Positions 9,444 through 11,698 of a DNA stretch of 63,956 bases are shown in pieces (position 1 is the first letter of the stretch; each line of letters starts with the position of its first letter). A program made the position numbers and the translations under genes. The DNA comes from Chloroflexota bacterium. Lineage in GTDB: Bacteria > Chloroflexota > Anaerolineae > Aggregatilineales > Phototrophicaceae. The DNA lies in NCBI GenBank assembly GCA_013388735.1, contig JACAES010000058.1:1-63956 (forward strand), in the 5' to 3' direction. The notes beneath the pieces are model-generated. The model made no database searches. It had not been told where the DNA came from and saw only the letters and a list, made by a program, of their open reading frames with translations.

Positions 9444-10271
9444 TCAGATCTGTTCGCCCGGATGCCGGAAGGACACAATCAGAATCAGGCGTCCCAGGCG
9501 CAGTTCATCGCCATGATGCAGCGCGCGCACTTCTTTTGGCAGCACGCGCTGCCCATTGATGAAAGTCCCATTGGCGCTGCCCAGATCCGACGCCAGCACA
9601 GCTTTCTGGTCGGCATCGTAGCGCAGCGCCAGGTGCATCCGAGAAACGCCCAGGTCGGCGGCCTGCCGGTCTTTTAAGTCCACGTCTGGCGCGATGGCGC
9701 TGCCGCTGGAACTGCGCCCCACGATGATTTCATGGTCGGCCTTTTGTGGACGCACCTCGTAGGTTTCGGATGACCCCCGCGCGCGCAGCGCCAGCACCGA
9801 GTCGTCGCCAAAGTAGCCGGAATCCATCGTATCGCCCGCATCGGCGAAATGTTTGGTATTCTGCTCCCCCCGGCGCGTATCCAGCAGATGGCCGCAGGCG
9901 TAACAGAACACCTCGTGCGACTGGTTGGTTTTGCCGCAGTTCGGGCAGGCAACCCAGGTGATGGCGTTCTCCGGCTGAGGCGCGACCGCAGCTGGCGCGG
10001 GCGGCGGCGTGTCGGCAGCCGGTTTGGCGGCCAGCGGCTTGATGACCGGGTGCGGGCGCGGTTTGGTTTTTTCGGCAGGGTTTTGATTTTCCCAGGTTCG
10101 GATGAGCGCCGCCAATTCTTCCCGCTGTTTTTTATTGAGTTTTTCAATGTGTGGACGAAGCGCCTGCAGGGCGGACTTGCTCTCCGCGCCGTTGTCGCGC
10201 ATCTGGGTGTATTCGTTTAGAATATCCTGTATATAATTCAACCTGGTCTTCCTTCTCATATGCAGGAGCAT
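9444..10271 (-). CDS. zinc-ribbon and FHA-domain protein
   Basis: The product has about 275 residues in three parts. An N-terminal helical segment (about 1-75) is followed by a Pro/Ala-rich linker. A zinc ribbon CPNCG-CYACG lies near residues 115-140. A C-terminal FHA domain has IIVGRSSSGS, GVSRMHLAL and DLGSANGTFINGQ, and FHA domains bind phosphothreonine peptides. It is probably a cytoplasmic partner of a Ser/Thr kinase, but no kinase is in the window. A longer frame to 10547 would run antisense through the SelW-like gene and is not convincing. The starts at 10271 and 10259 are both possible and neither has a clear ribosome binding site. Confidence 0.85.
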   Translation of the reverse strand: MLLHMRRKTRLNYIQDILNEYTQMRDNGAESKSALQALRPHIEKLNKKQREELAALIRTWENQNPAEKTKPRPHPVIKPLAAKPAADTPPPAPAAVAPQPENAITWVACPNCGKTNQSHEVFCYACGHLLDTRRGEQNTKHFADAGDTMDSGYFGDDSVLALRARGSSETYEVRPQKADHEIIVGRSSSGSAIAPDVDLKDRQAADLGVSRMHLALRYDADQKAVLASDLGSANGTFINGQRVLPKEVRALHHGDELRLGRLILIVSFRHPGEQI

Positions 10272-10308
10272 CGGTCTTAGTATATAACGAAGTTGTAAGG
10301 AGTGCTTG

Positions 10309-10605
10309 ATGCAATACCCGCTTCTGGATGTCACGATTGAATACTGCGCGGTTTGAAAATATACCCCGCGCATCGTCAGTTTGACGAATGAAATTTTGAG
10401 CGAACGCGAGATTGAAGTGTTTATCCGCTCCTGGCTGCTGATACCCGGTACAGGCGGCAAGTTTGAAGTGATGGTCAACGGCGAACTGGTCTTTTCCAAA
10501 AAGGCGCTCGGACGCCACGCCGAACCTGGCGAAGTCCGCGCCCGCATCCTGGAAAAGCTGGAAGCCGTTCGCCCGCCGGGAATTCGGTTTAACGCGGACG
10601 AGTAA
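10309..10605 (+). CDS. selenoprotein W-like Rdx-family protein, Sec encoded by in-frame TGA
   Basis: Reading from the ATG at 10309 gives a 98-residue protein only if the TGA at 10354-10356 is decoded as selenocysteine. The N-terminus then reads VTIEYCAVUKYTPR, which is the CxxU redox motif of SelW/Rdx proteins (Cys13, Sec16). The rest matches the family: a thioredoxin-like fold with PGTGGKFEVMVNGELVFSKK. A good AAGGAG (10297-10302) lies 6 bases before the ATG, with no equally good signal for the TTG at 10381 where a plain ORF caller would begin. A hairpin with a GTT loop follows the TGA at the right distance. Family members are thiol-redox proteins of uncertain partner. selA, selB, selC and selD must lie elsewhere. 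The alternative is a nonsense mutation of a Cys codon. Confidence 0.83.
10373..10387 (+). promoter_or_regulatory. candidate bacterial SECIS hairpin
   Basis: TCGTCA (10373-10378) pairs perfectly with TGACGA (10382-10387) around the three-base loop GTT. The loop starts 22 bases after the TGA codon. A short stem, a G as first loop base and a 16-37 base distance from the UGA are the accepted features of bacterial SECIS elements bound by SelB. Confidence 0.65.
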
Positions 10606-10615
10606 AAGGAAACTT

Positions 10616-11698
10616 ATGCTCAAACGGCTTGGATTCATCGTTTTGCTGCTGGCGCTTTCCTCCGCGACACTGGCGCAGGAGGAGACACCCGCCGCCGTCA
10701 TCGGCCCAACACTTAATTCGGTGCTGTCGCGCGGGGTAGTGGCCTGCGGCATCAACCAGAGCCTGCGCGGCTTTGGCTTTCTGGACCCCAACACCGGTGA
10801 ACTGCGTGGTTTTGATGTGGATTTCTGCCGCGCGCTGGCGGCGGCGGTTTTTGGCGACGCGACCGCCGTACAGTTAGTCCCCTTCAGCGGCGATAATGGC
10901 CTGGACGCGCTTGAATCCGGCGAGATTGACGTGCTGATGCGCAATGTCATCTGGACGCTTTCGCTGGATTCCAGGCCGGAACTGGATTTCGGGACGATCA
11001 CCTTTTATACCGGGCAGACTTTTATGACCCGCACCGACAGCGGTCTGAGCGATTGGGCAGTGCTGGATGGCGCGGTGATCTGCGTGGCAGAAGGTTCGAC
11101 GGCGGAGACCAGCCTGGGGCAGGCGATGGTGTCTCGCGGGCTGTCCTACCAGCCGGTGACGCTGCCGACGGCGGCAGAGGCCGCGCAGGCGTTCACCGAT
11201 GGGCGCTGCCAGGCTTACAGCGCCGGGCTGATAGACCTGGAGTCCGCCCGCCAGCGGCTTCCCGACCCGGCGGCCTACGTGGTCTGGCAGGGACGCGAAC
11301 ACCTGTACACGCAGGAGCCGATCGCGCCGGTTTATCGCAATGATGACCCGCAGTGGGCGGATATTGTCAACTGGACAATCCTCGGTCTGATTCAGGCTGA
11401 ACAACTGGGCATCACCAGCGAGAATATCAACACCATCGTGCGCCAGCCGGAAGAAGGCGAGGACACCTATATCAGCCGCGTCGGCCTGGACGTGGCGCGT
11501 TTCCTCGATGCGCGTACCGGTATCGGCGGCCAGCTTACCTTAGCGAATGATTTTATGGTCAGCGTGATTCGTGAGGTGGGCAACTACGGCGAAATCTTCA
11601 ACCGCCATTTTGGCCCCGGCGGCGATCTGCGGCTGGAACGCGGCCTGAACAGCCTGTGGCGTGACGGCGGCCTGCTCTATGCCCCGTCCTGGCGATAA
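10616..11698 (+). CDS. amino-acid ABC transporter substrate-binding protein (AapJ-like)
   Basis: The 360-residue protein has a signal peptide (cleavage near ATLAQ) and a bacterial extracellular solute-binding family 3 domain. The run VVACGINQ...GFGFLDPNTGELRGFDVDFCRALAAAVFGD is characteristic of AapJ-type general L-amino-acid binding proteins. No permease or ATPase gene is adjacent, so it is an orphan receptor here. It starts 10 bp after the SelW-like gene with AAAGGAAACTT before the ATG, and the two may share a transcript. It ends 13 bp from the convergent glycosyltransferase gene. Confidence 0.87.
   Translation: MLKRLGFIVLLLALSSATLAQEETPAAVIGPTLNSVLSRGVVACGINQSLRGFGFLDPNTGELRGFDVDFCRALAAAVFGDATAVQLVPFSGDNGLDALESGEIDVLMRNVIWTLSLDSRPELDFGTITFYTGQTFMTRTDSGLSDWAVLDGAVICVAEGSTAETSLGQAMVSRGLSYQPVTLPTAAEAAQAFTDGRCQAYSAGLIDLESARQRLPDPAAYVVWQGREHLYTQEPIAPVYRNDDPQWADIVNWTILGLIQAEQLGITSENINTIVRQPEEGEDTYISRVGLDVARFLDARTGIGGQLTLANDFMVSVIREVGNYGEIFNRHFGPGGDLRLERGLNSLWRDGGLLYAPSWR

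Follow-up and report, generated by a model that had tools for sequence, protein, structure and literature searches.

The interval 10309–10605 on the forward strand of the window (the whole stretch of 63,956 nucleotides analyzed here, contig JACAES010000058.1 of the Chloroflexota assembly GCA_013388735.1) almost certainly encodes a SelW/Rdx protein in which the UGA at 10354–10356 is read as selenocysteine (Sec), a reading carried by the gene itself, by the Sec machinery of the host genome and by selection on a hairpin that follows the UGA. The interval is very probably a true SelW-like selenoprotein gene and as such a new bacterial instance of a known family.

Reading frame and active site

The selW frame opens at ATG 10309 and, as a sequence-only reading of the same DNA had proposed, is broken solely by TGA 10354–10356 before it ends at TAA 10603–10605. 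The product has 98 residues with Sec at position 16, and its translation with TGA as U contains EYCAVUKY, which places U at the last position of a CxxU redox motif (C-A-V-U, residues 13–16, 10345–10356), also as proposed. The AAGGAG said to precede the start codon is found at 10297–10302 (plus strand), 6 bases 5′ of the ATG, and resembles a Shine-Dalgarno site; no sigma-70-like promoter was found on the plus strand in 10150–10700. In an alignment of 28 hand-picked proteins, the window's own included, neither the motif Cys column nor the Sec/Cys column varies when TGA is read as Cys, and outside the active site the stretch GRHAEPGE (10510–10533) is strongly conserved.

The sequence-only reading had also expected that ordinary gene callers would start at TTG 10381, and the mechanical list of open reading frames does contain, in the selW frame, only TTG 10381–10605 (74 aa). 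As the sole frame so listed, it raises the question whether the real product is a short protein that begins at the TTG and has no active site. This is extremely improbable, as the 24 codons upstream are conserved as protein, with Cys13 present in 28 of 28 aligned sequences, the Shine-Dalgarno-like site sits before ATG 10309, the match to the Rdx profile starts at residue 8, and TTG 10381 falls within the loop and stem of the hairpin described below.

Protein family and predicted fold

Assignment of the Sec-containing, full-length product to the SelW/Rdx family, claimed from the sequence alone, is borne out by two profiles that score over their cut-offs, namely Pfam Rdx PF10262 (E=9.8e-17, 61.4 bits against a cut-off of 22.6, residues 8–80 aligned to profile positions 2–72 of 74) and TIGR02174 SelT/SelW/SelH (3.6e-14, 52.8 bits against 34.2); in the profile search the Rdx domain spans most of the protein. 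The model NF041051 SelTWH_Campy, which by its name we take to describe a Campylobacter-type family, gave a better E value than the other models (3.3e-20) yet at 72.1 bits remained below its cut-off of 88, and the window protein is therefore filed under the wider Rdx/SelW family only.

Comparison of the sequence with solved structures returns Rdx proteins such as 3dex and 2fa8, which in the alignments have CxxC whereas the window protein has CxxU. A structure model prepared from the 28-protein alignment, with Cys in place of Sec, has a mean pLDDT of 84.7 and shows a strand at residues 6–13, the CxxU motif at 13–16 and a helix at 19–30, that is, the order strand-CxxU-helix. The solved structures nearest to the model are the SelW-related entries 2fa8, 2oka, 2obk, 3dex, 2p0g and 2ojl, which share both fold and family with the window protein, and after these come MIEN1 (2ljk) and mouse selenoprotein W (2npb). 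The native mouse protein contains Sec; the Rdx-type fold is common to the two proteins and the sequence match is weak (E 0.13).

The UGA column in relatives

The window protein is matched in 69 of the 98 genomes of the host's taxonomic family, and in 66 of these the column carries TGA with no further stop inside the match. The three remaining matches have no intact TGA gene: in G146 the codon is TGT; G319 has two distant copies without a stop, one with TGC at the column and the other with its codon not read; and G411 has a decayed copy that keeps the TGA, has Gly for the first Cys of the motif, and is missing the stretch in which the hairpin would lie and the part after it. Among 200 records tried, the column was readable in 181 loci (174 TGA, 6 TGT, 1 TGC), a count that includes duplicate assemblies and the decayed copy of G411; when duplicates, the window copy and the decayed copy are left out, 135 loci remain, with 129 TGA, 5 TGT and 1 TGC. 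In both counts the loci are best matches and not a random sample. Rdx matches occur in 179 of the 396 genomes of the host's class, and among the matches listed nine loci are without a stop and the rest have one TGA each. Sec/Cys pairs exist at this column in homologues, where TGA, TGT and TGC are all encountered, as the sequence-only reading had anticipated.

The same column bears on the possibility that the TGA is a mutated Cys codon, in a pseudogene or through a sequencing error, and that the frame downstream is a remnant. The 74-aa downstream frame may indeed look like a truncated gene, and G411, which has no selA match, does hold a decayed copy; set against this, 66 of the 98 family genomes have TGA at this very column, flanked on both sides by conserved protein, the hairpin covaries and the host genome has the full Sec machinery, so that such decay in the window has only the slightest probability. 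Relatives with a stop and no conservation beyond it, named in the sequence-only reading as the pattern that would speak against a selenoprotein, are not what the comparison returned, the downstream protein being conserved in TGA relatives.

Selenocysteine machinery of the host

In the host genome, estimated to be 94% complete, all four components that the sequence-only reading had named as the ones to look for are present. Profile searches find selA (543 bits), selB (367.5 bits) and selD (355 bits, with one in-frame TGA), and a tRNA-Sec scores 64 bits, over the Rfam cut-off (RF01852); ARAGORN calls the same tRNA tRNA-SeC with a TCA anticodon. The in-frame TGA of selD lies near the N-terminus in the context CAG-U-ASKLGPGDL (locus L018, contig 121 of the host assembly G000, minus strand). 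Because of this codon selD is a likely second Sec gene, and SelD is probably the second Sec protein of the host genome.

These components weigh on whether the UGA is instead read as Cys or Trp through a suppressor or an altered code, for which it may be said that Cys occupies the column in G146 and G319, where Sec machinery was not found. In the host, the tRNA with the TCA anticodon is called tRNA-Sec, selA, selB and selD accompany it, and a hairpin linked to the UGA is not expected under general reassignment; moreover, several open reading frames of the window translated with table 11 (e.g., Creatininase, CrtC) match nearly whole models, and this speaks weakly for TGA being a stop elsewhere. 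Reassignment to Cys or Trp is accordingly given hardly any credence, and decoding as Sec is the reading followed below.

A SECIS-type hairpin inside the coding frame

Bacterial SECIS elements lie at 16–37 bases from the UGA. In the window, a SECIS-type hairpin of 6 bp with a GTT loop occupies 10373–10387 on the plus strand (TCGTCA-GTT-TGACGA, arms at 10373–10378 and 10382–10387, loop at 10379–10381). The sequence-only reading had described this stem and loop, and the hairpin stands; the distance does not, as the 22 bases it had assigned to the start of the stem lead to the first loop base, the stem itself beginning 16 bases past the TGA. Its further claim of a bacterial SECIS with an early loop G within the above range agrees with the GTT loop at 22 bases, which is conserved on a covarying stem.

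Folding energy is unimpressive by itself, with z values of -0.48, -1.64 and -1.78 for three stretches of the window, and is not unusual in the 66 family sequences either (mean z -0.72, -0.49 and -0.09 in three stretches, by synonymous recoding). The case for the hairpin is instead made from synonymous conservation, covariation and position, not from minimum free energy. Synonymous identity at codons 6–12 after the TGA is 0.87–1.00, against 0.24–0.56 expected from the genes' own codon usage; elsewhere it is mostly close to expectation, which codons 1–3 and 5 exceed moderately and codons 15 and 24 clearly.

Across the 66 family sequences 99.2% of the cells of the six pairs are paired, and partners slid by up to 6 columns pair in at most 60%; for the 57 distinct rows the fraction is 99.1%, versus no more than 52% with slides of 1–3 columns. 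Two-sided changes are seen at four of the six pairs, in 12 cells compared with a mean of 1.1 in shuffled controls that ignore the relatedness of the sequences, and none of 500 such shuffles reaches either the observed pairing fraction or the observed two-sided changes; further pair types number 7 against 5.0 in the shuffles, a value matched by 20 of 500. Some two-sided changes, e.g., in L064 and L190, keep the stem yet alter the protein. A C-C mismatch occurs in the stem of one family member, and two have one at the innermost pair.

Position is constrained as well. With a simple hairpin finder, 63 of 66 family members (5.1 expected under synonymous recoding) have their best hairpin 22 bases from the TGA to the loop, with 3 loop bases and 5 pairs or more, and the same geometry is found outside the family in 48 of 63 distinct TGA homologues (5.2 expected), a set from which L124 and L125 are excluded as duplicates of family members; in the other 15 of 63 the best hairpin lies off the common position. 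For sequences taken singly the significance is weak, with 18 of 65 below 0.05 in a set that still holds the two family duplicates. The Cys homologues L045 and L126 gave no hairpin, but their recoded controls score low too, which leaves this as weak evidence. Judged from these sequence comparisons, the hairpin after the TGA is under selection.

The geometry of 22 bases and a 3-base loop is nearly constant across the class and actinobacterial records (L022–L049, L120–L159). A longer fold, in which a GCGCGG/CCGCGC stem encloses the TGA in its loop, was dropped, as inspection by eye shows that its stem bases vary in relatives.

Gain and loss of selW and selA

In the host's family selA scores over its cut-off in 74 of 98 genomes and is counted as present in 75, the addition being G430, which has a clear fragment below the cut-off (254.8 bits); the weak matches of G416, G425, G427 and G436 are counted as absent. 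On this basis 64 genomes have both selA and selW, 11 have selA only, 2 have selW only and 21 have neither, an association with a Fisher p of 2e-11, uncorrected for relatedness. The 11 selA-positive genomes without selW mean that selW is not tied to every Sec user. The two genomes with selW only (G416 and G465) have a TGA selW, no selA in their assemblies, and selB over the cut-off; G465 (68% complete) has a tRNA-Ser as its highest-scoring RF01852 match.

The best RF01852 match, as a candidate for tRNA-Sec, was examined with ARAGORN in 10 of the 23 family genomes counted as selA-less, and nine of these matches are tRNA-Ser, four of which had scored over the Rfam cut-off of 47 (G146, 50.5 bits; G411, 47.7 bits; G403 and G408, 47.1 bits each); the second RF01852 matches L210 and L211 are likewise tRNA-Ser. 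The tenth, that of G416, is a tRNA-Sec by ARAGORN. In this genome (97% complete) the tRNA-Sec is located ~4.3 kb from selW, both on contig 174.

The pattern is sharper in the host's genus (17 genomes), where 11 of 11 selA-positive genomes carry a TGA selW and an intact copy is missing from all 6 that lack a selA match (Fisher p 8e-5, relatedness again uncorrected). All 17 have the selW slot bordered by a relative of the FHA gene on its upstream side and a relative of the binding-protein gene on its downstream side. In five of the six selA-less genomes nothing SelW-like was found between these neighbors at E 0.01 (L231, L232, L233, L236, L237), and the sixth, G411, has its decayed selW in the same slot (L199, L227). 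In all six, no selB match reaches the cut-off and the best RF01852 match is a tRNA-Ser. The completeness of these six assemblies is 76–97%, and the strongest cases for a missing selA are G398 and G405 (97% and 96% complete, with 10% and 8% contamination, respectively). Within the genus, whether selW is retained, lacking or decayed at its constant chromosomal position thus follows the Sec machinery, and the genus constitutes a natural experiment in this respect. The Cys-type genome G146 gave no match to selA and none to selB above the cut-off, and its best RF01852 match is a tRNA-Ser.

At the level of the class, selA is over the cut-off in 315 of 396 genomes. Among the 179 Rdx-bearing genomes, 166 have selA at 1e-40 or better, as read from the search listings, and the other 13 have no match or a weak one (E above 1e-20). 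Two of the 13, G146 and G319, have a Cys-type Rdx; the remaining 11 (G047, G132, G188, G205, G225, G290, G318, G328, G335, G353 and G369) are 55–90% complete, and at least 8 of them have TGA at Rdx. Missing contigs are the likely explanation for the selA gap in these 11 incomplete genomes.

Proposed mode of action and relation to known SelW proteins

Judged from family and pathway, Sec insertion and redox chemistry would probably proceed as follows. SelA and SelD would make Sec-tRNA-Sec, SelB would hold the hairpin at 10373–10387 while delivering the charged tRNA to the ribosome, and the ribosome would decode UGA 10354–10356 as selenocysteine. The product is a small thioredoxin-fold redox protein of the SelW/Rdx family, probably cytosolic, with the CxxU active site predicted to follow the first strand and precede the first long helix; the motif probably switches back and forth between a selenenylsulfide and a reduced selenolate/thiol pair, and may reduce a partner thiol or form mixed bonds with it.

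By 2005 bacterial SelW-like selenoproteins already counted as a known family, according to the part of the Sargasso Sea study drawn on here (PMC1088965), where those with CxxU are the most abundant prokaryotic selenoprotein family with 48 genes; they are also the most abundant in the table of the GOS study (427; PMC2398784, in the portion used). The 2006 survey, in the sections drawn on (PMC1794560), states that Sec-using organisms have few or no Cys homologues of SelW-like proteins. The bacterial SECIS is described in this literature as a hairpin with a G in a small apical loop. The window gene resembles the bacterial SelW-like selenoproteins described there in its CxxU, its in-frame UGA and its hairpin with a small-loop G, and no essential difference from them was found in the portions used (PMC1088965, PMC2398784, PMC1794560); the window copy is of Anaerolineae type and its hairpin geometry is very fixed (22 bases, 3-base loop). 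The eukaryotic SECIS sits in the 3′ UTR, and in this mouse SelW differs from the window gene, whose hairpin is inside the coding frame.

Among the titles listed by the literature searches, none is on SelW in Chloroflexota; PMC1794560 mentions Chloroflexi twice, at least once in connection with selenouridine. In Epsilonproteobacteria, SelW genes were completely missed by annotation and share a 5/6-bp hairpin whose loop G is invariant (PMC4607533, in the passages used), and selW of the host is an instance of this gene class that annotation is known to miss. Like SelW of Campylobacter jejuni as portrayed in the available part of PMC11955535, the window protein is short, has an in-frame UGA and is unannotated. 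In C. jejuni full-length read-through is backed by ribosome profiling and peptides (PMC11955535, same part), whereas the window protein is known from sequence and falls short of the SelTWH_Campy cut-off (72.1 bits <88).

Neighboring genes

Upstream of selW, in divergent orientation, a zinc-ribbon/FHA-domain protein is encoded at 9444–10259 on the minus strand (start codon placed by eye, profile scan on 9444–10247). Downstream, 10 bases past the selW stop and on the plus strand, 10616–11698 encodes a solute-binding protein of the amino-acid type of ABC transporter (SBP_bac_3, by profile match), whose product resembles amino-acid binding proteins and is below the cut-offs of the four NCBIfam models that it matched. 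In 37 of the 47 loci L080–L126 a relative of this binding protein is encoded downstream of selW in the same orientation. Beyond the family, 70 loci were tested, 30 of them with short flanks only, and a binding protein near selW was found only in L125, which is itself identical to a family member. A literature search for a connection of SelW with an ABC transporter and operon brought up a single paper, the one on C. jejuni (PMC11955535).

A functional tie between SelW and amino-acid uptake in the host's Chloroflexota family, which gene adjacency might suggest, is regarded as unlikely. If there were such a tie, SelW would influence whether the transporter, or else an imported thiol or seleno compound, is oxidized or reduced, and the binding-protein neighbor offers one testable lead on the physiological role of bacterial SelW. 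Six downstream open reading frames were scanned, two of them returning no match and four a BPD_transp_1 domain; the frame that follows the binding protein has this domain in L090, L095, L110 and L125, four of the five scanned.
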